From Comamonas sp. B21-038 (GTDB taxonomy: Bacteria > Pseudomonadota > Gammaproteobacteria > Burkholderiales > Burkholderiaceae_C): DNA of 64,000 nt. The stretch is from the NCBI RefSeq assembly GCF_022387135.1, contig NZ_CP092462.1, forward strand, positions 4,216,001 through 4,280,000, in the 5' to 3' direction. A program made the position numbers and the translations under genes. The notes under the pieces are model-generated. The model worked only from the letters and a program-made list of their open reading frames with translations. It ran no database searches and was not told the DNA's origin. Below, in pieces: positions 26,573 through 41,232 of this stretch (position 1 is the stretch's first letter; each line of letters starts with the position of its first letter).

Positions 26573-27829
26573 ATGACATGGGGAAAATGGTTGGCGGGCG
26601 TGCTGGTCAGTGTGCCGGCCATGGTGTTGGCGCAGGCCAATATCGAGAACGGAACATTGCGGATTGGGGTGCGGGCCGATGGCTCGTTGATGCCGGAGGA
26701 TATCTCTCCCTTGACCGGCATTACCTACCTGGCCAATGGCGCTGATGGTCTAACACCCGGCTGCTACTGCGAGGCCTGGGGCATTGCCGATGCAGTCACC
26801 AGCACCTCCGGTTTCACCGGGGCCAGTGTCGGTATCAATGGCATTACCTCGGAATCCTTCACCTCGACCGCCACCACGGCCACGGCGGTCGCCAACGCCT
26901 TTGGCACCTTCCGCGTCACCCATGCCTTTGCACCGTCGACGACCAACAACATCTACGAAGTCAAGGTAACGATCGAGAACATCTCGTCCGCACCGGTCGA
27001 GGCGCTCTATGGCCGCGCGATGGACTGGGATGTGTTCCCCACCCAGTTCAACGAATACACCACCATCCAGCGCGGCAGCAGCACGGCGCTGGTGTTCTCC
27101 AGCGACAACGGCTTCCACACCGCCGATCCGCTGGAAGACGACCCCGGCATTCTGTTTGTGAACCAGGACGTCGACGACAGCGGCCCGACCGACCATGGCG
27201 CGCACTTCCGCTTCAACTTCGGCACCATTGCGCCCGGTGCCAAGGTCGAGTTCACCATCGGCTACGGTGTCGCCGGCAACCAGGCCGATGCGCTGGCCGC
27301 GCTGGCCACCTTTGGCGCCGAGGCCTATTCGCTGGGCAAGCCCAGTGAAAACCCCCCGGGCACCCCCAATACCGATGGCACGCCCAACACCTTCATCTTT
27401 GCGTTCAAGGGCATTGGCGGTGTGCAGCTGATCGGTGTCGATGCCACCGACGACGCAGCCCCTGCGCTGACCCGCCCCGCGACGGGCACCGTCACGGCGG
27501 TCAACGTGCTGACCAATGACACGGTGGACGGCGTAGCGGCCACCCCGGGCAGCGTCACGCTGACGGCAGTGGGCACCTGGCCTGCCGGTATCACCGTGTC
27601 GCCGGATGGCAATGTGCTAGTCGGCCCTACAGCGGCGGCTGGCGCGTACACCTTGGGCTACCAGATCTGCAGCACAGTGCAGGCGACGCAGTGCGATACC
27701 GCGAATGTGACGTTGCAGGTGGATGCGCCGGTGGTGGTTGTGCCCAAGGCGGTGCCTGTGGGCCATCCGCTGGTGTTGGCGGGTTTGGGTTTGCTGCTGC
27801 TGGGCGTGGCGCGCCGCAAGCTGGTTTGA
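26573..27829 (+). CDS. Exported protein with C-terminal sorting-signal-like anchor
   Basis: A 418-residue protein. It has a signal peptide (WLAGVLVSVPAMVLAQA), a beta-rich extracellular-type body (repeated VTIENISSAP, GRAMDWDVFP, GAHFRFNFGTIAPG), and then an Ig-like segment (DATDDAAPALTRPATGTVTA and VLTNDTVDG) of the kind found beside IPTL-CTERM anchors. The C-terminus VPVGHPLVLAGLGLLLLGVARRKLV has a short polar motif, a hydrophobic helix and a basic tail, the layout of exosortase-type or IPTL-CTERM sorting signals. AAGGTGAG precedes the ATG. Function unknown; surface display or release is inferred from the ends only. Confidence 0.8.
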   Translation: MTWGKWLAGVLVSVPAMVLAQANIENGTLRIGVRADGSLMPEDISPLTGITYLANGADGLTPGCYCEAWGIADAVTSTSGFTGASVGINGITSESFTSTATTATAVANAFGTFRVTHAFAPSTTNNIYEVKVTIENISSAPVEALYGRAMDWDVFPTQFNEYTTIQRGSSTALVFSSDNGFHTADPLEDDPGILFVNQDVDDSGPTDHGAHFRFNFGTIAPGAKVEFTIGYGVAGNQADALAALATFGAEAYSLGKPSENPPGTPNTDGTPNTFIFAFKGIGGVQLIGVDATDDAAPALTRPATGTVTAVNVLTNDTVDGVAATPGSVTLTAVGTWPAGITVSPDGNVLVGPTAAAGAYTLGYQICSTVQATQCDTANVTLQVDAPVVVVPKAVPVGHPLVLAGLGLLLLGVARRKLV

Positions 27830-27881
27830 TCAGCTAACGGGGTACTGTGCCCTCATGCCTCGTTGCTTTGGCGCGGGGCTC

Positions 27882-27935
27882 TTCATGTTCATGTTCATGT
27901 TCATGTTCATGTTCATGTTCATGTTCATGTTCATG
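27882..27935. repeat. Hexamer microsatellite, nine copies of TTCATG
   Basis: Nine uninterrupted TTCATG units, 53 bp after the exported-protein gene. It is open in all frames and so generates Met-Phe, His-Val or His-Glu alternating peptides, which are taken as artefacts. A longer array of the same unit lies at 33900. Confidence 0.95.
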
Positions 27936-27989
27936 CTTTTGCATGTGCCTGCGGCGCGGCTTGGTTTTGCTGGCCGGATTTCGCCCGGC

Positions 27990-28035
27990 GGGCGAGGTAC
28001 TTTTCTTGGCGACCAAGAAAAGTACCCAAAAGAAG
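27990..28035. repeat. Palindrome-bearing dispersed element, TACTTTTCTTGG type
   Basis: TACTTTTCTTGG-CGA-CCAAGAAAAGTA is an almost perfect palindrome flanked by CGCCCGGCGGGCG and AAGAAGGTCGCC. It matches, in inverted orientation, the module around the TTTCATTTGGCGCCAAATG palindromes at 28537, 28925, 34169 and 34543. A related copy with a larger central loop is at about 34046-34090. Confidence 0.75.
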
Positions 28036-28088
28036 GTCGCCCTGCTGACTGCGTCCCTTCGCTTCGCTGCGGGCAACCTGTGGTGCTC

Positions 28089-28205
28089 GGGTATGGGCTG
28101 CACCGCGAAACTCACTACGCGCCAGAGGCGCTCCGTTCAAACAGACGCGGTGAGTCAGTTCACGAAGCAGTTGCACTCTTCGGTGCAACTGCCCAGCCCA
28201 TACCC
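28089..28205 (-). repeat. Structured repeat element, divergent inverted copy
   Basis: The outer stem GGGTATGGGCTG (28089-28100) pairs with CAGCCCATACCC (28194-28205). The inner hairpin CAGTTGCAC / GTGCAACTG is at 28168-28191, with stem CACCGCG / CGCGGTG (28101-28107, 28146-28152) and hairpin GCGCC-AGA-GGCGC (28119-28131). The same layout with different paired bases is found in the three copies of the opposite orientation. Confidence 0.8.
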
Positions 28206-28350
28206 TGTGCTCCTCGGCGCATTCAGAAGGGGAGATTCGCAGACGCAGGCCATCGCTGCGCTCGGCCTGTTTGGGGGGCCGAGCGCAGCGATGGCCTATT
28301 GGTATTGGCTGTTGGGGTGTTCGCATTCCCCTTTTGCATGCGCCTGGGGC

Positions 28351-28476
28351 GTGGTGTTTGTGGGGTGGCGCTGGCACCGCAGAGTGCCAGCGCTTCGTCA
28401 ACTAGCTTGCCGCGTCTGTCCGAACGGAGCGCCTACGGCGCGTAGAGAGTTTCGCGGCACACCCCGCAAACGCCAC
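28351..28476 (+). repeat. Structured repeat element, copy 2
   Basis: The outer 17-bp stem is 28351-28367 with 28460-28476. Two C-to-T changes in its left arm (28355, 28361) still allow G-T/U pairing. The inner hairpin GCGCTGGCAC / GTGCCAGCGC, the TGCCGCG / CGCGGCA stem and the GCGCC-TAC-GGCGC hairpin are intact. A CCCTTCGC-AAC-GCGAAGGG hairpin and a 30-bp perfect palindrome follow. Confidence 0.85.
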
Positions 28477-28536
28477 GGCACAGGTTGCCCTTCGCAACGC
28501 GAAGGGTCGCAGGCAGCAGGGGCGCCTTTTCTTTGG

Positions 28537-28566
28537 TTACTTTCATTTGGCGCCAAATGAAAGTAA
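28537..28566. repeat. Perfect 30-bp palindrome (copy 1)
   Basis: TTACTTTCATTTGGC followed directly by its reverse complement. It is part of the module that follows the structured repeat, and at least 26 bp of it recurs at 28925, 34169 and 34543. Confidence 0.95.
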
Positions 28567-28736
28567 CTGCGCCGCCGGGCGCACATCCCGGCCAGCCGCC
28601 CTACGCCAGTAGTAAACAGCGCCTATAAATATGCGCAGCGGAAAGCAAACCAGAAGCCACACTTAACTGCAAAGAACCAAGTCCTCCACCACCCAAAGAA
28701 GCTATCCCGAATCCCCCTTTTGCATGCGCCTGGGGC

Positions 28737-28862
28737 GTGGCGTTTACGGGGTGGCGCTGGCACCGCAGAGTGCCAGTGCATCGTCCACTAGCTTGCCGCG
28801 TCTGTCCGAACGGAGCGCCTACGGCGCGTAGAGAGTTTCGCGGCACACCCCGCAAACGCCAC
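28737..28862 (+). repeat. Structured repeat element, copy 3
   Basis: The same four stems as copy 2. The outer stem is 28737-28753 with 28846-28862, with a single A-C mismatch at 28746; the inner hairpin carries one G-T change. The downstream module and palindrome are also repeated, giving a 386-bp step from copy 2. Confidence 0.85.
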
Positions 28863-28924
28863 GGCACAGGTTGCCCTTCGCAACGCGAAGGGCCGCAAGC
28901 AGCAGGGGCGCCTTTGCTTTGGTT

Positions 28925-28950
28925 ACTTTCATTTGGCGCCAAATGAAAGT
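28925..28950. repeat. Perfect 26-bp palindrome (copy 2)
   Basis: ACTTTCATTTGGC plus its exact reverse complement, in the same context as the copies at 28537, 34169 and 34543. Confidence 0.95.
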
Positions 28951-29083
28951 GACTGCGCCGCCGGGCGCACATCCCGGCCAGCCGCCCTACGTTGTAGTAA
29001 ACAAAACCAATAAACAAGCACAACGGCCAGCCAACCAGACTCAGCAACGCCGCAGGCATATGCAAAGGCACAGCCTTAAAAAC

Positions 29084-29108
29084 AAAAAACCGGAGCCAAA
29101 GCCCCGGT
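29084..29108 (-). terminator. Terminator of the first giant exported-protein gene
   Basis: On the minus strand ACCGGGGC / GCTCCGGT (one mismatch) is followed by six T, 59 bp after the gene's stop. The same terminator, with a perfect stem, follows the paralog at 34702-34726. Confidence 0.82.
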
Positions 29109-29166
29109 CCTCACTCACATCGACCAGACAGCAGCTTGGAGTAGCCCGCGCTCCTGCCCAGCGGAT

Positions 29167-32100
29167 TTAACGCTTGCGCATATGCAAACTAGCAGCAGCT
29201 GCCATCGCCATCGCCAACAACAGCAAAGCAACCCGGCTATCCACAGGCACCCGCTCAGCGCTACCCACTTCCATGCGCGCAAGGCTATTCGTCACCGCCA
29301 CAGGCATATCGGCATCCGCCTCCACCGTCACCATGGCCTGGTCAAAGGCAGGATCTGCCCAGCGGTACCCCGATGGCGCATCGGGCAGACCTGCCGACAG
29401 CGCACATTGCGCACCGGCCTGCACGCCACTGATCATGGCCGACGAGCTGCTGGGGTAGTCCAGCGTCACGCTGTGCTTGGTGCCAGCTTCTGGCAGGTCA
29501 CAGGTGGCAGTCAGCACAAAGCTGAACGGGCCAGTGATGCCCTCGGGCAAGTTCGTGGTGGCGTTCAGCACAATGTTGCCCAGCTGCCCAAAGGGCGCGA
29601 GCACATTGGTCACCGTCACCGCCACATTGCTGCCGCCGGCGATCACCACAGCATCCGGTGCCGTAGGGGCCGCCCACTGGTAGGTGTCCGGTGCTGCAGG
29701 CAGGGGCTGGTCTTCCGTCACCAGGCAGTTGGCGCCAGCGGGCAGGTTGTCCATCGTCACCGCCGTGTTGGCCGGGTAGCCTGCCAGCGTAGCGGCGTAG
29801 GTGAAACCGGCCGTTGGCAGATCGCAGGTTGCGGTGAACGCAAAGTCAAAAGGACCGGTCACGCCATCGGGCAAGGCCAGTGCCTTGTTGATGGTCAGGC
29901 TACCCATTTGGGATTCGCTGAACACATAGTCCACTGCGGTTGCACCGGTGGGCACAACGATGCCGGTGATCGAGCGGCCTACCGCATCACCCGACGCAAC
30001 ACCATTGACGGTACCGGCTGTCGAGCTGCGATGGGTCCAGCTCGCCTCAGGCGCGATGCTCAAGGTCCAGGAGCCGCTGGCCAGACCCGGGAAGTTCGGC
30101 TGTCCGTCCACCGTCGCGCCCGGCGCAAAGCGGTAGACACCATCCGCATCGGTCACCGCCGTGTGCGAGGCACCAGCGGTACAGGCAGGGCCTGCTTCAC
30201 AGGTCACCGTCGCAGTCACACCCGCCACACCAGGTTCACCCGCATCGCGGCTGGCATTCATGTTCAGGTCGTTGAACACTTGGCCCGTCAGGCTCGCTGC
30301 GGCCTGTCCGCTCAGCTCCACCCTTCCGCTGGCCGTCAGCACCAGACCGCCCGGGCTCAGCTCGCGGCCGAACACGTCGTTGAACAGCTGGGTTGCCGGC
30401 GTCAGTGCCGTGGTGCTGCGCATCTCCAGATTCGCAATACCGCTGAAGCCCGGTTGCAAACCCAGGGTGGTGGTCAAGCGCAGCGCAGTCACGCCGACAG
30501 GGAAAGCCGCACCTGGCGTATACGCAGTCCAGTCCACACCGGTCGATGCATCTTCATTGCCTGGCGTTTGCACGGCAGCTTGCACCGCAGCGGCGCCTGT
30601 CAGCGTGTACTCGATGTCGATCGCGCCTTGGCTGGCACTGGCCATTGCTGCCTCGGCGCTCAGCATCTGCAACGGGCCCAGCGCCGCGGTGCCACGGCTG
30701 TCGCCGTCAAAGGGCAGCACATCGACCATGCGCAACCTGCCCTTGGTCAAGCTGGTGGCATTGCCAAACGCGATCGCATAGGTAAAGGGCTCACCCGCGG
30801 TGATGCGCGTGACAGGATTGGCCGGGTCGGTGTTATCCACCGTGCCACCGCTGACCAGCGACTTGCTCATCTGGAAGCCGCCCACCCCCGACACCGTGGT
30901 GCTGACGCGCTCGGTGCGGTCTTGCTGCATAGTCTCTGGCGAAATGTTGTCCACATCGGTGTAATCGGCCACGCTCAGATCGTTGGTAGCGGCCACACGT
31001 CCCACCAGCGGGTATGAGCCCACTGGGGAGATATAGGCCGCCTGCGCTTGGAAAGTGATGGGCGGATACTCCGTGACATGGCCTTGGTGCAGGCCTGGGC
31101 CCTGGGCACCGCCTGGGGCTGCCAGATCACCCAGGCGCAGCACCAGCTTGGCAGGTGCCTCACCCGCATCACCCGTGCCTGGCAGGCCATCTTGGCCCAA
31201 GTTCGCTTCGGTCAGCGTATGGGTAGCGCCCGGTGGCAATGCCGCAGCAATAGAACTGGCAATAGGCTGTATATAGGTGTTGGGGAAATCAATGGTGATC
31301 TCGACGTTACGAGACACGCCATCCACCCCTGCACCAACAGCGCCAATCGTGCGCGGTGTCACGCTGACTGGAAATATCTCGCCCGGAGCCACGCTGTTGG
31401 GCATGCTGATGCTGTGGCGGGCAAGCGCCGAGGCGGCCTGCACAAACCCGCCCCCGTCTCCACCGGAAGTCGATCCATCGCCAGCATACCGAGAGTAGAC
31501 GCGCCCGGTGGCCTCGCTGTAGTACTGGGTAAACCAGGCCAACGGTGCATCATCGGGCAGGGCCAAAGAGGCAGCACCGGTGCTGCGCTGGAAAGGCATC
31601 ACCAAACCAACCGTTTCGCCCGGCTGCAGCTCTGGGCGGTAGGCGTAGCGTACGCTAGTGATCGTATTGGCCGGCAGCGATGCATAGTTGCTGGTCCACA
31701 GCGGGTTTCCATCACCTGCCTCGCCACAGTTAGCGGCCTTGCGCGCATCGTTATTGGCATAAGGCTGAGCCGAATACTCCAGCACCAGGTCCGCTGGGGC
31801 TACATTCGGCAAATCCACCATGGGGGGGAAGATAAAGTACGGCGAGTTGGACAGTTTGAGGCTGGATGCTGCGCGTAACTCGAGCAAGGCGGGGTCCCAG
31901 GCAACACAAGATTGCGCCTCGGTGGCTGCCAGCTCAGAACTGCTCTGGTTCACCAGACCGACCGTGGCCATAAAGTTCTGGCCAGGCAGCACTTTTTCGG
32001 CACCGATGGTGTATCCGTGGGCATCGCCGTATATGTAGCCGCTGCCGTCATGCACCGCGCCCCCATTGGCCTCCAGCAACAGCGGCTGGGAGCGGTCGAT

Positions 32101-33240
32101 GACGGTGTTAAAGCAGCTTTGCGTGACATTCAGGTTCACATCCGGTGCACAGCTGAACCCAGGCTGGTGCCCGGGTGCGGGCGCTGCATTGGCCTGACCC
32201 GACAAACCCTGCGGCGCGAAATTCGTCAGCTGCGCCGTGATCCGGCTGGTCTGGCCAGCTGGAAAATTCGGGTCCTCGGGCACCCCGATCTGCACCACAA
32301 ACTGTGCAGTTTCCATCCAGGTGTCGCCAAAGCCAGGCGAGGTCGCCGGGTCCAGGAAATGGGTCGTCGGATTGTTGAACAGCACCGTGATATCAGCACC
32401 TGGCGCCGACTGGCTGCAAGTGACTCCGCTCGGGCAGTCCAGCACCACTGCACCGGGCTGCACCTGGATGGTGGCAGACACCGGGCTTTGCAAGGCCTCG
32501 AATCCCTTGTAATTGCCTGAAGCAGGCTTTACAGCACCCAGGCTGATAGCCACCGGCATGCTCCGCATCCACACGCCCGAACCCGCAGGGTTTTGCACCC
32601 GTGTCATGTTGGGCACTTCCACCCGCACGCGGGTGTCGGTCTTGGGCGTGGCAGACACCGTCACCGGTGCCGAAGTGACAGACGACGTGCCCGCTGCAGC
32701 GGTCATCGCCACCGTAGCGCCATGTGCCACATTGCCCACCCAGCTCAGCACCTGGAACGACTCCACCCCAGGCGTGCTGGGCTGGCGATCGCAGGTCAAC
32801 ACGGTTCTGGCATCGTTCAAGCTACCGCCGGCCGGGCCATTACAAACGCTGGCCGCTGTGGCAGTGGGATCCCAGCGCATGCCGGCGGGCAAGGTCGCGG
32901 TGATGGTGCCGCTGCTGGTGTTCGACGCGTTGTAGTTGATGGTGTACAGAACGGTGTCTTGCGTACGCACCACGCCGTTGTTGGTGCCGCTGTCATGGCC
33001 CGGTGCATTGTCTGCATCAAACGGGCCACTGCCATCTGCCGCAACGACCGCACTGGTGATGGTGATGGCCGCATGGGCCGGTGCCGCCAACGCCGCCATT
33101 GCACACAGGCTGGCCAGTGCCAACATGACCGGCTTGCGCTTTGCCCTGCCAACGGGGCTGCTGCGCGCGCCGAGTGGGCGAGCTTGCCCCAAGTAAGGGG
33201 CGCCACTGGCATTCCGAGAAAATAAGATATTTCTAATCAC
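29167..33240 (-). CDS. Giant exported surface protein, paralog 1 (two C-terminal repeats)
   Basis: About 1357 residues. The GTG at 33240 is chosen because GGAG lies five bases upstream at the place equivalent to the paralog's start. A long basic n-region precedes a signal core ending AAPAHA|A. The N-terminal 1000 residues are a beta-rich body including SVRYAYRPELQPGETVG and FQMSKSLVSGGTVDNTDPAN. An SdrD-B-like domain follows (LTGQVFNDLNMNASRDAGEPG, about 985), then two DUF5979-like repeats (about 1112 onwards, each with FxxTATCDLPxAG) and the C-terminal VPVDSRVALLLLAMAM...RKR anchor. Probably a surface or released adhesin-like protein; no ligand is known. It is a duplicate of the next giant gene. 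Confidence 0.85.
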   Translation of the reverse strand: MIRNILFSRNASGAPYLGQARPLGARSSPVGRAKRKPVMLALASLCAMAALAAPAHAAITITSAVVAADGSGPFDADNAPGHDSGTNNGVVRTQDTVLYTINYNASNTSSGTITATLPAGMRWDPTATAASVCNGPAGGSLNDARTVLTCDRQPSTPGVESFQVLSWVGNVAHGATVAMTAAAGTSSVTSAPVTVSATPKTDTRVRVEVPNMTRVQNPAGSGVWMRSMPVAISLGAVKPASGNYKGFEALQSPVSATIQVQPGAVVLDCPSGVTCSQSAPGADITVLFNNPTTHFLDPATSPGFGDTWMETAQFVVQIGVPEDPNFPAGQTSRITAQLTNFAPQGLSGQANAAPAPGHQPGFSCAPDVNLNVTQSCFNTVIDRSQPLLLEANGGAVHDGSGYIYGDAHGYTIGAEKVLPGQNFMATVGLVNQSSSELAATEAQSCVAWDPALLELRAASSLKLSNSPYFIFPPMVDLPNVAPADLVLEYSAQPYANNDARKAANCGEAGDGNPLWTSNYASLPANTITSVRYAYRPELQPGETVGLVMPFQRSTGAASLALPDDAPLAWFTQYYSEATGRVYSRYAGDGSTSGGDGGGFVQAASALARHSISMPNSVAPGEIFPVSVTPRTIGAVGAGVDGVSRNVEITIDFPNTYIQPIASSIAAALPPGATHTLTEANLGQDGLPGTGDAGEAPAKLVLRLGDLAAPGGAQGPGLHQGHVTEYPPITFQAQAAYISPVGSYPLVGRVAATNDLSVADYTDVDNISPETMQQDRTERVSTTVSGVGGFQMSKSLVSGGTVDNTDPANPVTRITAGEPFTYAIAFGNATSLTKGRLRMVDVLPFDGDSRGTAALGPLQMLSAEAAMASASQGAIDIEYTLTGAAAVQAAVQTPGNEDASTGVDWTAYTPGAAFPVGVTALRLTTTLGLQPGFSGIANLEMRSTTALTPATQLFNDVFGRELSPGGLVLTASGRVELSGQAAASLTGQVFNDLNMNASRDAGEPGVAGVTATVTCEAGPACTAGASHTAVTDADGVYRFAPGATVDGQPNFPGLASGSWTLSIAPEASWTHRSSTAGTVNGVASGDAVGRSITGIVVPTGATAVDYVFSESQMGSLTINKALALPDGVTGPFDFAFTATCDLPTAGFTYAATLAGYPANTAVTMDNLPAGANCLVTEDQPLPAAPDTYQWAAPTAPDAVVIAGGSNVAVTVTNVLAPFGQLGNIVLNATTNLPEGITGPFSFVLTATCDLPEAGTKHSVTLDYPSSSSAMISGVQAGAQCALSAGLPDAPSGYRWADPAFDQAMVTVEADADMPVAVTNSLARMEVGSAERVPVDSRVALLLLAMAMAAAASLHMRKR

Positions 33241-33899
33241 TTCAACTCCATTGATTGATAACATCAATACTTAGGAAGTCTAATGGTGACCATGTCCAAA
33301 CCAGCTTTTTTTCTGTTTTTCCTGCATCTGCATCAACAAAAAGCTGATGTTTCAGAAATCTGACGACGCTGTGGTTTATCCCATACGAATGTTGCTGCCT
33401 CACGTCCAATTCGAGGTCGATCCGGACGCTCTGCAGACAACACCCCTGCTGACAAACCCGCGTGTTTATTGGCTTTGCCCAGCGATGATGGGTATACGCC
33501 ACACACAAGATTGGGTGACCGCATTTCGCGGAAATAAACAACATGGCGCGCTGCTACTTCATGCAACATGCAGCGCGCTTAAACGTATGCGCTATGGCTT
33601 ATTTGTATCCAAACCTCTTGGGCTTGACGAAGATACAACTTAGACGGTGCTCCATCAGCGCGTTTGATGGGGGATGTCGATAGATTTAAAGAACCCTGTT
33701 ATTCAGGGGCTATCAAGCTGTTAACTTTTCAATACTGTCTGAGTGGGATGGTCGGAAAATGAAGCTGACCTGCGGTGCGGATTTTTAAGGCAGCTGCCTG
33801 CTTTTGCTTAGGCTTGCGGCGGTGCCTAGTTATGCTGGCCTGGTTTCGCTCCGGTGGATGGGGATACGCATTGCCATGTATGGCAGCTACAGCTGGCTG
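33241..33899. other. Leader of giant gene 1 and uncharacterised intergenic DNA
   Basis: The first 45 bp upstream of the start (CCATTAGA, TTC, TATT) are shared with the leader of the second giant gene and must carry common 5' sequences. The rest contains no convincing gene. A small hairpin CCCTG-TTATT-CAGGG lies at about 33691. Confidence 0.5.
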
Positions 33900-33983
33900 T
33901 TCATGTTCATGTTCATGTTCATGTTCATGTTCATGTTCATGTTCATGTTCATGTTCATGTTCATGTTCATGTTTATGTTTATG
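33900..33983. repeat. Hexamer microsatellite, twelve TTCATG plus two TTTATG
   Basis: Twelve perfect TTCATG units (33900-33971) followed by two TTTATG units. The array is flanked downstream by the same sequence that flanks the array at 27882, so the two loci derive from one duplicated segment with differing repeat number. Confidence 0.95.
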
Positions 33984-34103
33984 CTTTTGCATGTGCCTGC
34001 GGCGCGGCTTGGTTTTGTTGGCCGGATTTCGCCCGGCGGGCGAGATACTTTTCTTGGCGACCCCGGATCGCCGGCCGAAGAAAAGTATCCAAAAGAAGGT
34101 CGC

Positions 34104-34150
34104 CCTGCTGCTTGCGACCCTTCGCGTTGCGAAGGGTCGCAAGCAGCAGG
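34104..34150. repeat. Long perfect hairpin, 22-bp arms with GTT loop
   Basis: CCTGCTGCTTGCGACCCTTCGC pairs without error with 34129-34150 around three bases (left arm 34104-34125). It forms the centre of a larger inverted repeat: an AAGAAAAGTA-type element on its left and the TTTCATTTGGCGCC palindrome on its right are reverse-complement relatives. Confidence 0.92.
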
Positions 34151-34168
34151 GGCGCCTTAGCTTTGGTT

Positions 34169-34194
34169 ACTTTCATTTGGCGCCAAATGAAAGT
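34169..34194. repeat. Perfect 26-bp palindrome (copy 3)
   Basis: The same palindrome as at 28925, here next to the 22-bp-arm hairpin and without a full structured repeat before it. Confidence 0.95.
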
Positions 34195-34354
34195 GACTGC
34201 GCCGCCGGGCGCACATCCCGGCCAGCTGCCCTACGCAGTAGTAAACAAAACCAATAAACAAGCACAACGGCCAGCCAACCAGACTCTCAAAGCCCTAGCC
34301 CCAAAACACCCAAAGAAGCTATCCCGAATCCCCCCTTTTGCATGCGCCTGGGGC

Positions 34355-34480
34355 GTGGCGTTTGCGGGGTGGCGCTGGCACCGCAGAGTGCCAGCGCTTC
34401 GTCAACTAGCTTGCCGCGTCTGTCCGAACGGAGCGCCTACGGCGCGTAGAGAGTTTCGCGGCACACCCCGCAAACGCCAC
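34355..34480 (+). repeat. Structured repeat element, copy 4 (best paired)
   Basis: The outer stem GTGGCGTTTGCGGGGTG (34355-34371) is perfectly complementary to 34464-34480. The inner hairpin is 34372-34381 with 34388-34397; stem TGCCGCG / CGCGGCA is 34412-34418 with 34457-34463; hairpin GCGCC-TAC-GGCGC is 34433-34445. The whole folds as a three-way junction. Confidence 0.87.
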
Positions 34481-34542
34481 GGCACAGGTTGCCCTTCGCA
34501 ACGCGAAGGGTCGCAAGCAGCAGGGGCGCCTTTGCTTTGGTT

Positions 34543-34568
34543 ACTTTCATTTGGCGCCAAATGAAAGT
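34543..34568. repeat. Perfect 26-bp palindrome (copy 4)
   Basis: The same palindrome and flanks as copies 1 and 2, following structured repeat copy 4 at the same distance. Confidence 0.95.
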
Positions 34569-34701
34569 GACTGCGCCGCCGGGCGCACATCCCGGCCAGC
34601 TGCCCTACGCAGTAGTAAACAAAACCAAACAATAAGCACAACGGCCATCCAACAAAACTCAGCAACGCCGCAGGCATATGCAAAGGCACAGCCTTAAAAA
34701 C

Positions 34702-34784: not shown

Positions 34785-37700
34785 TTAACGCTTGCGCATA
34801 TGCACGCCAGCAGCTGCCATCATCAGCATCGCCAGCAACATCAATGCCACACGGCTGTCCACAGGCACAGGCACGGGATTAGCCGCTTGCACCTTGGTCA
34901 GCTCGTTCGTCAGCGCCACCGGCATATCCGAATCCGCCTCCACCGTCACCGTGGTCTGGTCGAACGCAGGGTCCGCCCAGCGGTAGCCGGCAGGTGCGTC
35001 AGGCAGCGTCTCGGTGATCGTGCACTGGGCACCGGCTTGCACACCGGTGATCATGGCCGACGCCGCAGGCGGCGCGGTCAGGGTCACGCTGTGGGTCGTG
35101 CCAGCGGTGGGCAGGTCGCAGGTGGCAGTCAGCACAAAGCTGAACGGACCGGCCACCCCGTCAGGCAAGGTCGTGGTGGCATTCACCTGGATGTTGCCTT
35201 GCTTGCCGGTCAGCGCATTGGTCACGCTCACCGCCACGGCACCGGTGGCAGGCACCACCACAGGGGCGGGCACCGAAGGGGCAGCCCAGCTGTAGTTGGC
35301 CGGGGCGGCCGGCAGCGGCTGGTCTTCGACCACCGAGCAGTTGGCGCCGGCGGGCACGTTGGCAATGGTCACCTTGGTGTTGGCCGGGTAGTTGGCCAAG
35401 GTCGCGGTGTAGGTGGTACCGGCAGCGGGCAGGTCACAGGTGGCGGTAAAGCCAAAGTTGAAGGGGCCCGTCACACCGCTGGGCAGCGCCAGGGTCTTGG
35501 TCACTTCAATGCCGGCTTGTCCGCGCACCAGGGTGCTGGCCATCGTCGTCGCCACATCGCTGTTGGCCACCACGGTCACCGTCGCATTGGCAGGCGCAGG
35601 GCCCCAGGTGAAGTTGGTGGGGGCCGTGGGCGCTGGGCCTTCGGCCACCACGCACTGCGCACCGGCAGGCACGTTGGCGATCGTGGTCGAGGTCGCGCCC
35701 GGGTAGCTCAAGCTGGCAGGGAACACGGTGCCAGCGGTCGGCAGATCGCAGGTGGCCGTGTAGCTGAAGTTGAACGGACCGGTCACGCCTTGGGGCAGGG
35801 TCAACGTCTTGTTGATGGTGATCGTGCCGAACTGCTGAACCAGCGTATTCGTCACACCGACCGACGCCACACCGCTGGCAGGCACCGTCACCGGCGCAGG
35901 CACGCTAGGGGCGCCCCACTGGTAGCCATTCGGCGCCGCAGGCAGCGGAGCGTTTTCCGCCACCGCGCAGCTGGCACCCGATGGGATACCGGGGATCGTC
36001 ACCCGCGTGTTGGCCGGGTAGTTGGCCAACGTCGCGCTGAAGACCGAGCCGGGCGTAGGCAGGTTGCAGGTAGCGGTAAAGCCAAAGCTGAAGGGGCCGG
36101 TCACACCGTCTGGCAGGGCCAGCGTCTTGGTCACTTCAATACCGGCAAGCACACGCACCAGGGTGCTGGCCATCGTCACCGGGGCCGTTGCGTTCAAAGG
36201 CACCGTCACTGGCACATTGGCAGCCGCTGGGCCCCAGGTGTAGTTCGCAGGGGCTGCAGGCAGGGGGCCTTCAGCCACCACGCACTGTGCACCGGCAGGC
36301 ACACCGGCAATCGTGGTCGACGTTGCGGTCGGGTAGGTCAGGCTCGCAGGGAACACCGAGCCGGCCGTGGGCAGGTCGCAAGTAGCGGTATAGGTGAACG
36401 TGAACGGACCAGGAGCATCACCAGGCAAGGCCAGATCCTTGGTGATCGTGATGCCGCCCAGCAGCGGGTTCAGCGCGTTGGTCACCGTCACGGCCGCATT
36501 GCTGCTGGCAGGAATCACCACCGCAGCCGGGGTCGTCGGCGCTGCCCATTCGTACAAGGCCGGGGCCGCAGGCAGCGTGTCTTCGGTCACCGTGCAGGTG
36601 GCGCCAGCAGGCAGGCCTTCAATCGCGACCGAGGTGGCGCCGGGGTAGCCCACCAGGGTGGCAGGGTAGGTGAAGCCCGCCGTTGGCAGGTCGCAGGTGG
36701 CGGTAAAGCCAAAGTCAAACGGACCGGTGCCAGGTGGCACGACCAGCGCCTTGTTGATCGTCAGCGCACCCACTTCATGCTCGGCAAAGCGGTAGTCCAC
36801 AGCGGTAGCGCCGGTGGCCACCACAATGCCGCTGATGCTGCGACCCACGGGCGTGCCCGATGCGGCGCCGTTGACCGTGCCGGCCGTCGAGCCCACATTG
36901 CGCAACGTCGCAGCCGGGGTAATGCTCAGGGTCCACGATCCGCTGGCCAGGCCGGGGAAGTTGGCTTGGCCATCAACCGTAGCGCCAGGCGCAAAGCTGT
37001 AGACGCCCGAGGCGTTGGTCACCGCGGTATGGGTCTCACCGGCCACGCAAGCGGGGCCTGCATCGCAGGTCAGGGTAGCAGTCACACCGGCAATACCGGC
37101 TTCACCGGCATCCGGCGTGTTGTTCATGTTCGCATCGAGGAACACGCTACCCGTCAGGCTGGCCGCTGCCTGGCCGCTCAGCTGCACCGAGCCGCTGGCC
37201 GTCAGCACCAGGCCGCCGGGGGTCTGCTCGCGGCCAAACACATCGTTGAACAGCTGGGTCGTCGGCGACAGTGGCGACACCGTGCGCATCTGCAGATTCG
37301 CAATACCGCTATAGCCGGGGTTCAGCACCGAGCTGGTGGTAAAGCGCAAGGCCGTTACACCCGCGGGGAACGCTGCGCCCGCCGTGTAGGGCTGCCAGTT
37401 CACTCCGGTGGCAGCGTCTTCGTTACCCACCGTGCGCACTGCTGCTTGCACGTTGGCTGCCGAGTCCGTTGTGTACTCCACAGCAATCGTGCCTTGGCTC
37501 ACGTCCGCCATGGCCGCGTCCACGCTCAGCATTTGCAGCGCGCCCAGGCCGGTAGTCCCACGCAGGTCACCGTCAAACGGCAGTACATCGACCATGCGCA
37601 GCTGGCCCTTGGTCAGGCTCGTCGCATTGCCAAAGGAGATCGCATAGGTAAAGGGCTGGCCGGCAGTAATGCGGGTCACCGGGTTGGCCGGGTCGGTGTT

Positions 37701-40088
37701 ATCGACCGTACCGCCTGCGACCAGCGATTTGCTCATCTGGAAGCCGGCTACGCCGGAGACTGTGGTGCTGGCCACTTCGCGGCGGTCTTGCGTCAACGCC
37801 ACTGGTGTGATATTCCCTACGCCAGTCCAATCCGCAAAGCTCAGGTCATTGGTCGCCGAGATCAAGCTGCTCAACGGATAGGCGCCGACCGGCGAGATAA
37901 AGGCTGCCTGGGCTTGGAAGGTAATGGGCGGATAGGTGGTTACATGGCCTTGGTGCGGGGCGGGGCCTACGGCACCGCCAGGGGCAGGCAAGTCACCCAG
38001 GCGCACCACCAGCTTGGCAGGTGCACCATCATCCGCTGTACCAGGCAGGCCATCCAAACCCAAATCAGCCGGGGTCAGTGTATGGGTTGCACCAGGTGGC
38101 AGACCTGCAGCAATCGAGCTGGCAACCGGCTGGATATAGGTGTTCGGGAAGTCAATCACATACTCCACATTGCGCGAAACAGCATTGATTCCTGCCGCAG
38201 CAGCACCAATCGTGCGTGGGACCACCGAGACAGGGAAGATAGCGCCCGGCGCGACACTGGGAGGCATTTCAATGCTATGGCGCACCAGCGCCGATGCGGC
38301 TTGCACATAGCCGCCGCCCGTGTTACCGCCCCCAGCGCTGCCGTTGCCAGGATAGGTGGCGTACACGCGTCCACTTGCTGCAGTAAAGTATTGACGGAAC
38401 CAGGGCAGCGGTGCGTCATCAGCCAGCGCCAAAGATGCTGGGCTGGTACTGCGCAGCAGAGGCAAGACCAAACCCACTGTCTGGCCAGGCTGCAGATCTG
38501 GCCGGTAGGCGTAACGCACACTGGTGATCGTATTGGGCGGCAAGGATGCGTAATTGCTGGTCCACAGCGCATTGCCATCACCGGCCACGCCACAGTTAGC
38601 GGCACGACGCGCAGCGTTATCTGCATAAGGCTGGGCCGAATATTCCAGAACCATATCAGCAGGTGCGACATCCGGCTGTGCCAAGTTGGCAGGCTGATAA
38701 AACAGCGTGACGTTGCTGAACTTCAGACTTGCTGCTGCGCGCAACTCCAGCAACGCAGGATCCCAGGCCACGCAAGACTGCACATCAGTCGAGGCCTGTT
38801 CGGATACGCTCCGGTTAGCTACGCCCATCAACGCAAAGAAGGTTTGGCCAGGAAATACCTTTTCACGGCCTTCTGTAAAACCATGACCATCGTTGTAGAT
38901 AAAGTTACTGCCATCGTAGGCAGTACCTCCACTGATAGTCAGTTGCTCCGTTTGAACGCGATCAATGGGCGTACGGAAACAGGTTTGTGCATTATTCACA
39001 TTGGTGGTTGGGCAAACGAAGCCGGGCTCGTAACCCGGCGCTGGCACCACATTAGGTTGGCCTGATAAACCCAGTGGCGCGAAATTCGTCAACTGCGTCG
39101 TTAGAGGACTTACCACTCCAGCTGGGAAGTTGGGGTCTTCAGGTACGTCAATTCGTACGTCTACAGCTACGGTTTGCCGCCATGCCGACTCAAAGCCGCC
39201 TGCGGGCGCCGCATCCAAATAATGGGTGATGCGATTGTTCAACTGCAATGTTACGTCCGTACCCGGACCGCCCGGCTGGCTACACGTCGCACCGTTTGGA
39301 CAGGTTGAGACTACCGCGCCTGGCTGGACCTTTATAGTCAGAGAAATTGGACTTTGCAAAGCCTCATAGCCTTTAAAGTTACCGCTTGCTGGTAGAACTG
39401 CCCCGAAGCTGATAACGAACGGCATCCGACGCATCCATACGCCTGAGCCGGGAGCGCTCTCCACCCGTACGATGTTGGCGACTTCAACTCGGTTGCGAGT
39501 ATCCGTCTTCGGCGTAGCCGACACCGTCACCGGCCCCGAAGTCGCCGACGAACCACCCGATGCGGCCGTCATCGTCACCGCAGCGCCATTGCCTACCGCA
39601 CCGACCCAGCTCAGCAACTGGAACGATTCCACACCAGCACTGTCCGGCTTGCGGTTACAGGTCAGCACGGTACGGTCCGCATTCAACGTACCACCGCCGG
39701 TGCCATTACACACGGTAGCCGCAGTAGCGGTTGGATCCCAGCGCATGCCAGCCGGCAAGGTCGCGGTAATCGTGCTGCTATCGGTGTTCGACGCGTTGTA
39801 GTTGATGGTGTACAGAACGGTGTCTTGCGTACGCACAACGCCGTTCAGCGGGCCACTGTCATTGCCGGGGTTGTTGTCGGCATCAAAGGGGCCCGTGCCA
39901 TCGGCGCTGACGACCACGCTGGTGATGCTGATGGCGGCATGGGCCGGGGCGGCCAAAGCGCAAAAGCCGGCCAAGGCCAGCAGTGTTTTACCCAGTGCGC
40001 CCCGTAGCGGCGCCCCCTCCCTGGCGGCGCTGCGGAGCGGGTGCGCATGCGCCCCCGGCCACAGCAGATTGATGCGATTTTTTATCAT
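34785..40088 (-). CDS. Giant exported surface protein, paralog 2 (six C-terminal repeats)
   Basis: About 1767 residues. The start at ATG 40088 (MIKNRINLLW) is preceded by TGGAG; an upstream in-frame ATG at 40103 lacks a site. A long basic n-region and the signal core TLLALAGFCALAAPAHA|A lead into a body closely matching paralog 1 over about 1100 residues. It includes an SdrD-B-like domain (LTGSVFLDANMNNTPDAGEAG). Six DUF5979-like repeats of about 105 residues (about 1104-1735) follow, each with FxxTATCDLPxAG and PAGAxCxVxE. The C-terminus PVPVDSRVALMLLAM...RKR is a hydrophobic sorting-type anchor. Cysteine pairs recur in every repeat. Function is inferred only as a surface or secreted protein. 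Confidence 0.87.
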   Translation of the reverse strand: MIKNRINLLWPGAHAHPLRSAAREGAPLRGALGKTLLALAGFCALAAPAHAAISITSVVVSADGTGPFDADNNPGNDSGPLNGVVRTQDTVLYTINYNASNTDSSTITATLPAGMRWDPTATAATVCNGTGGGTLNADRTVLTCNRKPDSAGVESFQLLSWVGAVGNGAAVTMTAASGGSSATSGPVTVSATPKTDTRNRVEVANIVRVESAPGSGVWMRRMPFVISFGAVLPASGNFKGYEALQSPISLTIKVQPGAVVSTCPNGATCSQPGGPGTDVTLQLNNRITHYLDAAPAGGFESAWRQTVAVDVRIDVPEDPNFPAGVVSPLTTQLTNFAPLGLSGQPNVVPAPGYEPGFVCPTTNVNNAQTCFRTPIDRVQTEQLTISGGTAYDGSNFIYNDGHGFTEGREKVFPGQTFFALMGVANRSVSEQASTDVQSCVAWDPALLELRAAASLKFSNVTLFYQPANLAQPDVAPADMVLEYSAQPYADNAARRAANCGVAGDGNALWTSNYASLPPNTITSVRYAYRPDLQPGQTVGLVLPLLRSTSPASLALADDAPLPWFRQYFTAASGRVYATYPGNGSAGGGNTGGGYVQAASALVRHSIEMPPSVAPGAIFPVSVVPRTIGAAAAGINAVSRNVEYVIDFPNTYIQPVASSIAAGLPPGATHTLTPADLGLDGLPGTADDGAPAKLVVRLGDLPAPGGAVGPAPHQGHVTTYPPITFQAQAAFISPVGAYPLSSLISATNDLSFADWTGVGNITPVALTQDRREVASTTVSGVAGFQMSKSLVAGGTVDNTDPANPVTRITAGQPFTYAISFGNATSLTKGQLRMVDVLPFDGDLRGTTGLGALQMLSVDAAMADVSQGTIAVEYTTDSAANVQAAVRTVGNEDAATGVNWQPYTAGAAFPAGVTALRFTTSSVLNPGYSGIANLQMRTVSPLSPTTQLFNDVFGREQTPGGLVLTASGSVQLSGQAAASLTGSVFLDANMNNTPDAGEAGIAGVTATLTCDAGPACVAGETHTAVTNASGVYSFAPGATVDGQANFPGLASGSWTLSITPAATLRNVGSTAGTVNGAASGTPVGRSISGIVVATGATAVDYRFAEHEVGALTINKALVVPPGTGPFDFGFTATCDLPTAGFTYPATLVGYPGATSVAIEGLPAGATCTVTEDTLPAAPALYEWAAPTTPAAVVIPASSNAAVTVTNALNPLLGGITITKDLALPGDAPGPFTFTYTATCDLPTAGSVFPASLTYPTATSTTIAGVPAGAQCVVAEGPLPAAPANYTWGPAAANVPVTVPLNATAPVTMASTLVRVLAGIEVTKTLALPDGVTGPFSFGFTATCNLPTPGSVFSATLANYPANTRVTIPGIPSGASCAVAENAPLPAAPNGYQWGAPSVPAPVTVPASGVASVGVTNTLVQQFGTITINKTLTLPQGVTGPFNFSYTATCDLPTAGTVFPASLSYPGATSTTIANVPAGAQCVVAEGPAPTAPTNFTWGPAPANATVTVVANSDVATTMASTLVRGQAGIEVTKTLALPSGVTGPFNFGFTATCDLPAAGTTYTATLANYPANTKVTIANVPAGANCSVVEDQPLPAAPANYSWAAPSVPAPVVVPATGAVAVSVTNALTGKQGNIQVNATTTLPDGVAGPFSFVLTATCDLPTAGTTHSVTLTAPPAASAMITGVQAGAQCTITETLPDAPAGYRWADPAFDQTTVTVEADSDMPVALTNELTKVQAANPVPVPVDSRVALMLLAMLMMAAAGVHMRKR

Positions 40089-41232
40089 CACAACTCCATT
40101 CATTGAAAATATTAATATTTAAGAATTCTAATGGCTGCTGCGATGAAAGTAGCATCTGTCACAACAAACGGCGTAAAAACCACCTTTTCTACACTGGTTT
40201 AGAAAAATTGACATTTGTGCGGGAGACGTGTGCCAAACCAGGGTTTACCCAGGCGTCGCGAGGCCCATCGTGGTGGGCGCTCCCACCCCCCTTGAAACAT
40301 CCGAATCTGCCCGCCAGTATTCGCTGGAGTGCTAGCGCTTATGGCGCAGAAAGCGGTTTTTGAACGGCGCTACCTGGGTTGAAGATTGACTGAAAATCAA
40401 TGGGTATAGCATTTATGCGTATTTTGTAACGAATAGTTTATGTACGCATCGAACCACGGCGATTTCAGCGGAATGAATCAAAAAGTAACTTCCCGGCCTG
40501 CTCCGAAAATTTCCTGTATTAGCAAGGGGATACGATTTTCCTCTCGCTGCTAATTTATGATGGAACGGCAATCATTTCTGATTCATTAATCGTTAAATGA
40601 ATGTGCTTATTCACATACTTCTGTTTGTTAATTTCTGAAAACCAAACCCTGCAGTCTGGTCGGGCAATGGAGGGCATTTTCAGCGGTTAAAGGGCTGAAT
40701 CGCTGCGCCATGGCAGCCCGCTCATACCGCTGCTACCCGGCCTATGGCGGCGGGGATAACGGCAGTGCGCTGCATGGAGCCGCACCGCGCTGCGGCGAGG
40801 GCAAAAGGCGTGCCCGCACGGTCACCGGGCCATGCCGCCACGGCGCCAAAACAGCTGAAAAAGGGGTGGCGGCGGCAGAACGCGGCCACCCAGGCCGGCC
40901 ACCGGTTGGGGTGGAACCAACGCATTGAATAGACGTTAATGATTGGTTTAATTGTTTTATTAGTACATAGCTATAATTTGCGCAGTCATGCCTGGCGGCA
41001 GCGCACGCTGTAGCGCGCTGCACCGTAGGCATGCTTCGTGCCGCTTGCCGCGCGGGGATGGGCAGATGCCTTCCCGCACGGCGCTCCGGCTCCCCCCATC
41101 ACCATGGGCAGGCGTGCCCCTCGTGGTCTGAGCCCACGCCGCCTGCCCGCACTGCAGCGCCGCTGCGCCTTGCCACCATGCTCCCCAGCGCGGCAAGCCG
41201 GCCTGCAGTGCACGCCCTCCCGCACCGCTGCC
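40089..41232. other. Intergenic stretch between giant gene 2 and the small Trp-rich gene
   Basis: About 1.1 kb in which no reading frame is convincing. The first 45 bp are the leader shared with giant gene 1. A good -10-like TATAAT is present at 40972-40977, but its -35 region is weak; it could serve the small gene starting at 41233. The remainder holds no recognised element. Confidence 0.5.

Follow-up and report, generated by a model that had tools for sequence, protein, structure and literature searches.

The BIMEs of enterobacteria are mosaics of modules in alternating orientation that lie 3' of genes and favour convergent pairs, and the attC sites of integrons keep their structure despite sequence drift, fold strand-specifically and carry an extrahelical base near the tip. 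REPINs, the REP doublets mobilised by RAYTs, are extragenic, dispersed and non-autonomous; their two halves are inverted and separated by a spacer, and the prediction is that they fold when single-stranded, as DNA or as mRNA (Bertels and Rainey, 2011; PMC3116915). The REP unit itself is a short palindrome of 20-40 bp (PMC3733652).

The window, by which we mean the whole 64,000-nucleotide stretch of Comamonas sp. B21-038 DNA that was analysed, holds members of a family of three-way junctions (TWJs) that is real, widespread and extragenic; its layout is closest to REPINs, and by the tests made it stands outside the RAYT-linked REP family. Like REPINs, TWJs are dispersed, non-autonomous and extragenic, and form inverted doublets with conserved spacing (72 of 105 gaps measure 120-180 nt). 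Unlike REPINs, they have as their unit a junction of ~125 nt plus a tail instead of a short palindrome, the dimer in the window reaching about 630 bp; they are not associated with the presence of RAYTs, and none adjoins any of the 11 RAYT genes examined. TWJs share with BIMEs the mosaic of modules in alternating orientation, the position 3' of genes and the preference for convergent pairs, but their folds are much longer, show family-wide covariation and keep a narrow head-to-head spacing. As in attC sites, structure is conserved over sequence, folding is strand-specific and an extrahelical base lies near the tip; the three-way junction and the mirror dimers set TWJs apart. The structured RNAs of Rfam likewise have covarying helices around a conserved core, yet the TWJ reaches no family's gathering score. 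The best reading is that of an undescribed, REPIN-like structured mobile repeat. With roughly even confidence, we take it to be a DNA-level, non-autonomous extragenic repeat family whose unit is read as folded single-stranded DNA (ssDNA) and usually works within a dimer of mirror images.

Elements in the window and their folds

The initial annotation had placed four copies of one junction, made of an outer stem P1, a hairpin P2 and a stem P3 closing hairpin P4, at 28089-28205 (inverted), 28351-28476, 28737-28862 and 34355-34480, and the sequence and repeat analysis of the window finds all four there. Each folds with a z-score between -5.5 and -7.7, and none of 200 dinucleotide shuffles does as well. 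The proposed pairing could be rebuilt: the three A-type copies share 39 pairs, and the inverted B-type copy has 34. Every pair is Watson-Crick in the copies at 28089 (B) and 34355 (A); the 28351 copy has the two G.U pairs that had been named for it, and in the 28737 copy one pair is G.U and another is broken (A.C). That the four copies share the same junction holds by comparison but not by energy alone: on its own strand the B-type copy has an RNA minimum-energy fold of -66.8 kcal/mol, against -59.1 kcal/mol for the TWJ, and because it energetically prefers this other RNA fold, the common structure of the four copies rests on comparison.

The element had been drawn too small and counted too low. 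Each TWJ is preceded by a 5' head (CCCCTTYTGMATGCGCC) and followed by a hairpin-bearing 3' tail about 110-130 nt long; the 5.18-Mb genome holds ten TWJs at E<=0.001 (model R1), four of them in the window. They fall into three clusters, all ordered minus, plus, plus, with a solitary copy at 34355 in the window.

The first two copies are read, from sequence and repeats, as a single head-to-head dimer of about 630 bp. Its minus-strand arm begins with the B-type 3' tail (27975-28088), which matches the A-type tails through inverted repeats I4 and I21 and contains the palindrome GGTACTTTTCTTGGCGACCAAGAAAAGTACC at 27996-28026, and continues into the B-type junction at 28089-28205 (P1 to P4; z -6.7; model match 28085-28210 at 131-134 bits; 34 Watson-Crick pairs). 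In the centre of the dimer (28206-28350), two heads, GGCGCATTCAGAAGGGG and CCCCTTTTGCATGCGCC, flank the palindrome GGCCATCGCTGCGCTCGGCC / GGCCGAGCGCAGCGATGGCC at 28248-28296. The plus-strand arm consists of the first A-type junction, 28351-28476 (z -6.6; 135-137 bits), and its 3' tail, 28477-28600, with palindromes at 28488-28506 and 28536-28567, repeat families D1 and D2 and inverted repeat I14. The 140-nt gap between the two model matches lies inside the family-wide gap distribution. The third unit of the cluster, also on the plus strand, is the second A-type junction at 28737-28862 (z -5.5; 128-129 bits), followed by a tail at 28863-28990 with repeat families D1 and D2. Farther along, 34074-34226 holds tail-only remnants in both orientations and without a junction (own-genome matches 4250118-4250226, plus, and 4250074-4250136, minus; inverted repeats I10 and I20). 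The third A-type junction, a single plus-strand unit at 34355-34480 (z -7.7; 137-139 bits), is followed by its tail at 34481-34605, again with D1 and D2; the fold of 34340-34600 has a z-score of -6.6.

Covariation and distribution across genomes

A covariance model (R1) was built from 21 sequences and refined twice, to R2 and R3; matches in the genus, family, order and class are those of R2 or R3. Genome counts are lower bounds, since any search covering over 40 genomes applies stricter filters and scores few candidates in each. The search of related genomes with such a model, for which the initial annotation had called, recovers a large family. Within the genus, TWJ matches occur in at least 51 of 53 genomes, the source genome included, and copy number ranges from 0 to 40, with two of the 53 genomes giving no match under the stricter filters. 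At least 105 of 250 genomes and at least 63 of 141 genera of the family carry the TWJ, Acidovorax, Paracidovorax, Hydrogenophaga, Variovorax, Rhodoferax, Rubrivivax, Ramlibacter, Xenophilus and Delftia being among the carriers in the matches listed. Matches are found in at least 12 of 300 genomes of the order, five of these belonging to the same family, and in at least 4 of 369 genomes of the class, two of which are the source genome and a congener. In the outlying matches, which are G303, G499 and, as weak relatives beyond the order, G812 and G662, P2 is absent or replaced by a few unpaired bases, and P1, P3 and the core TGTYTGARCGGAG ... GCAGYGAGTT are retained (8 of 14 alignments). This suggests that P2 is a later addition, or that it was lost in the outlying lineages.

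A phage origin was rejected, since no match is present in 50,697 phage records and the exact core pattern is not found in IMG/VR. A plasmid-borne element was rejected as well: a single plasmid record, from Comamonas odontotermitis, matches, in two places. In the window every Rfam family stays below its gathering score, and the sub-threshold matches are chance-like only; in 18 related loci the only hits above gathering score are two glycine riboswitch aptamers at one locus. No earlier description of the TWJ family was recognised in full-text literature taken mostly from outside the subscription journals, with core-string matches judged from those listed.

Covariation was assessed with a tree-aware test, our own script after the idea of R-scape and not R-scape itself, which uses 60 null alignments and an extrapolated tail. 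Its input was 91 of the 99 rows of alignment A5; short rows, rows of at least 97% identity and two weak matches were dropped. Among the 91 sequences, 20 of 35 pairs are significant (E<0.05). Only two significant column pairs fall off the structure: one extends P1, and the other is an R-Y pair within the P3/P4 internal loop, adjoining GA/GA steps. In a 35-sequence alignment that was fitted to the structure, 96.6% of cells pair, changes on both sides occur in 32 of 35 pairs, and the covariation score is 0.625, against 0.186 after shuffling and at most 0.11 after sliding. The letters of P1 and P2 differ between genera and their pairing is retained. A kissing interaction of the P2 loop with the CTTCG that follows P2 was rejected, since the loop varies (CGNAG) and its partner does not. 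The earlier claim of selection on structure, which a lack of covariation across many genomes would have contradicted, is thus borne out by the pairs that covary against the tree-aware null and by the pairing kept as P1 and P2 change, and such selection is strongly supported.

Dimers, genomic sites and the folded strand

The arrangement of TWJs was counted over 306 distinct full junctions, with neighbours closer than 700 nt, A4 comprising the best 150 of 159 matches and rows shorter than 105 letters being dropped. Neighbours stand head to head in 105 cases, against 10 plus-plus, 6 minus-minus and 2 tail-to-tail arrangements, and the head-to-head gaps, most of them in the range given above, have a median of 160 nt. 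Head-to-head pairs occur also in other families of the order and, outside the order, in G812. By a rough rule based on flank motifs, the arms of 98 dimers are of types A+B in 45, AA in 11, BB in 16 and unclear in 26. Open reading frames are seen between head-to-head units at two loci, a 610-aa frame at L241 and, at L210, two small frames that by eye resemble a toxin-antitoxin pair; they are treated as chance neighbours and not as cargo.

With a heuristic gene finder, 111 of 176 clusters could be judged for their site and 62 were not judged; 53 of the 111 lie between convergent genes, 54 between tandem genes and 4 between divergent genes, and three more clusters are inside a predicted frame. 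Background gaps of at least 60 bp, called by the same finder at loci L212-L291, divide into 31 convergent, 96 tandem and 38 divergent of 165. TWJs avoid divergent gene pairs, at 4 of 111 sites against 38 of 165 in the background. In tandem contexts, ten monomers point along transcription and 12 against it, which amounts to no orientation bias.

The strand that folds can be read from the mismatches. On the head-to-tail strand, G.T pairs exceed A.C pairs by 27:4 (53 sequences), 42:8 (76) and 57:10 (86) at <90% identity and by 6:0, 14:1 and 17:4 at <70% identity, in three alignments that share some rows or places and in a count that leaves out the loop-closing C.A pair. A double-stranded cruciform would give G.T and A.C in about equal numbers; the excess of G.T indicates that the head-to-tail strand folds alone. 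Wobbles make up 1.3-2.1% of pairs, taken as an absolute share. A scan for tRNAs as a wobble control found two in 50 sources and was set aside.

C(GNA)G loops are extraordinarily stable in DNA, and GNA triloops are found in RNA also. With close relatives counted, C(GNA)G forms the tip of P2 in 208 of 302 sequences and that of P4 in 129, and P4 ends in a triloop in 243 of 302. At <80% identity, the three alignments have C(GNA)G in 26/30, 29/48 and 26/54 sequences at P2 and in 13/30, 21/48 and 24/54 at P4. Among 125 background hairpins with stems of at least 8 from 80 related loci, two have C(GNA)G and 36 have triloops. The abundance of C(GNA)G hints at ssDNA as the folded molecule, with RNA the less likely alternative.

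Such an RNA, with the head-to-tail strand transcribed from a central bidirectional start or by read-through from a neighbour and acting as a small RNA, a terminator or a 3'-end stabiliser, is an unlikely alternative that several observations suit. Strand-specific wobble tolerance and covariation fit RNA as well as ssDNA; the heads face each other, so that transcription starting in both directions from the centre would run through each junction in sense; the sites lie after genes, one of them where a relative has, by eye, an apparent bidirectional terminator; and 27800-29200 contains 7 terminator-like sites against 2.3 in shuffles, an excess that would fit a role at transcript ends. The same interval, scanned for sigma-70-like promoters, has none (0.2 expected). 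Against an RNA stand also the even orientation between tandem genes, the few wobbles and many triloops, the B-type copy, whose RNA minimum-energy fold is not the junction, and the lack of any matching Rfam family. Where the initial annotation had left the choice between a small structured RNA, a REP-like unit and a mobile element, the latter two are favoured and the first loses ground, since no promoter is found in that interval, orientation shows no bias, C(GNA)G triloops are many and wobbles few; these are pointers, not proof. The TWJ is probably read as folded ssDNA.

Mobility and the search for an enzyme

The combination of inverted repeats and 8-bp duplications is typical of cut-and-paste (DDE) transposases, not of ssDNA transposition. 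In one genome, G184, 12 aligned dimers end in 22-bp terminal inverted repeats (CCTGATTAG...), and perfect 8-bp target duplications flank 8 of them. This genome has 43 such ends, which make up 18 pairs 137-807 bp apart and 7 unpaired ends. No autonomous copy was seen among these 43 ends. That the TWJ dimer is an ordinary miniature transposon, the passive cargo of a DDE-transposase MITE, would account for the inverted repeats, the duplications and one 137-bp pair of such ends, which leaves no room for a junction dimer. It is nevertheless very improbable: duplications of 8 bp or more are confined to G184 among 44 dimers tested (none beside the 32 of other genomes), the dimer is family-wide, no autonomous copy is seen in G184, and what is conserved across the family is the internal fold and not the ends.

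In the lineage of the source genome, no target duplication was found at the dimer ends. Judged by eye, single units at 6 of 9 loci in G200 have defined ends without inverted repeats, and in eight dimers of G160, G177, G193 and G196 conservation stops after the last tail hairpin. TWJs are present or absent at the same place in related species. At one site that is filled in G200, G151 has no element and, by eye, carries the apparent bidirectional terminator mentioned above; G166 and G167 have an empty L019 site, which is filled in five nearer relatives, as is the L018 site. Dimers thus stay at the same place across species, which implies that movement is slow or past. From left to right, the arms at L019 read A, B in the source genome, G178 and G164 and B, A in G171 and G168, and G189 has A on the left; because the arms are swapped between relatives, the dimer has been inverted or replaced in place.

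The stability of these sites bears on a rather doubtful alternative, in which the TWJ is a chromosomal DNA site that serves the host, bound by a nucleoid protein, gyrase or a fork or terminator factor, and is kept by selection like BIMEs with little mobility. The places common to five close relatives agree with it, as do the enrichment between convergent genes (53/111 against 31/165) and a core sequence conserved beyond the order; a copy number that runs from 0 to 40 within one genus, with two genomes giving no match under the stricter filters, and the 8-bp duplications in G184 speak against it. Tail modules are exchanged patchwise between copies. Together with the dimer inverted at one orthologous site and the near-perfect Watson-Crick stems with few wobbles, this exchange could be explained by compensation that serves no function, in which one arm is copied onto the other through hairpin-templated repair or template switching in a decaying mobile repeat. 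We consider this improbable, as it leaves unexplained the asymmetry of G.T over A.C, the conserved unpaired core, the GNA loops and the covarying pair in the internal loop.

For a REPIN-like mobile repeat, the natural candidate for the mobiliser is a RAYT (PF01797). Of 12 Comamonas genomes, 11 have one copy each; judged by eye, its HUH motif is intact in 5 of the 11 and degenerate in 6, and no TWJ lies within 1.5 kb of a RAYT at the 11 Comamonas loci. Over 250 family genomes, RAYTs occur in 75 of 105 TWJ carriers and in 112 of 145 non-carriers (Fisher p 0.31), stricter filters possibly having missed some carriers. With no TWJ nearby and no association, the RAYT was rejected; no mobilising enzyme was found among the candidates examined, RAYTs and autonomous copies in G184.

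The reading preferred here, that of a structured mobile repeat, can be framed as a mechanism. The unit, made of head, three-way junction and tail hairpins, would act as folded ssDNA and not as RNA, usually within a mirror dimer whose two folds flank a centre about 150 nt long, in a REPIN-like layout with branched folds of ~125 nt replacing the short palindromes. A protein acting in trans may recognise the conserved P3-P4 core, that is, TGTYTGARCGGAG ... GCAGYGAGTT and the pair inside the internal loop, and the same protein may move or copy the dimer, for instance while it is single-stranded at the replication fork; the stems would drift because pairing alone matters. More tentatively, TWJs may constitute a class of mobile element of their own: each half of the dimer would fold strand-specifically into branched ssDNA with a conserved non-canonical core recognised by a putative enzyme, and the element would have spread in Comamonadaceae and beyond without a RAYT.

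The family is common, occurring in at least 105 of 250 family genomes without a matching Rfam entry, and its members are larger and more elaborate than known REP elements. They illustrate that strong covariation alone is no proof of RNA, and that wobble share, loop type and orientation bias need checking. Should the TWJ fold as DNA, it would be a natural DNA structure of unusual elaboration whose compensatory evolution can be demonstrated, and the covariance model is a ready tool for finding the protein that reads the fold.

Dimer inversion and dimer ends

At one orthologous site (loci L157-L162), two out of five closely related genomes have the head-to-head dimer of three-way junctions inverted, so that the A-type and B-type arms change places. 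In genome G184, the 22-bp ends that bound the 750-bp dimers also occur as a 137-bp pair (G184:C1:2038405-2038541), which is too short to contain a junction dimer.

RAYT-like proteins and lone tail palindromes

The RAYT-like proteins of Comamonas (L146-L156; PF01797, the family of the RAYTs that mobilise REPINs) are single-copy; judged by eye, five genomes encode one with an intact HUH motif and six one in which the motif is degenerate. In several genera, e.g., in genome G119, the palindrome of the tail that follows each junction on its 3' side (GGTTACTTTC...GAAAGTRAC; query 190-244) is also found outside full units, as tandem or inverted pairs.

Surroundings of the junctions

In the window, two long ORFs on the minus strand, paralogous and secreted-looking by eye, lie at 29167-33267 and 34785-40103; the sequence downstream of them is duplicated and contains a terminator-like hairpin as well as an A-type junction. 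Runs of the hexamers TTCATG/ATGTTC, ~54-90 bp long, adjoin the repeat clusters at 27882-27936 and 33894-33985. Elsewhere, two small ORFs resembling a toxin-antitoxin pair by eye are enclosed by two head-to-head junctions (L210, 596-1251), and in L214 (6056-6611) a tandem glycine riboswitch has a junction ~200 nt upstream.
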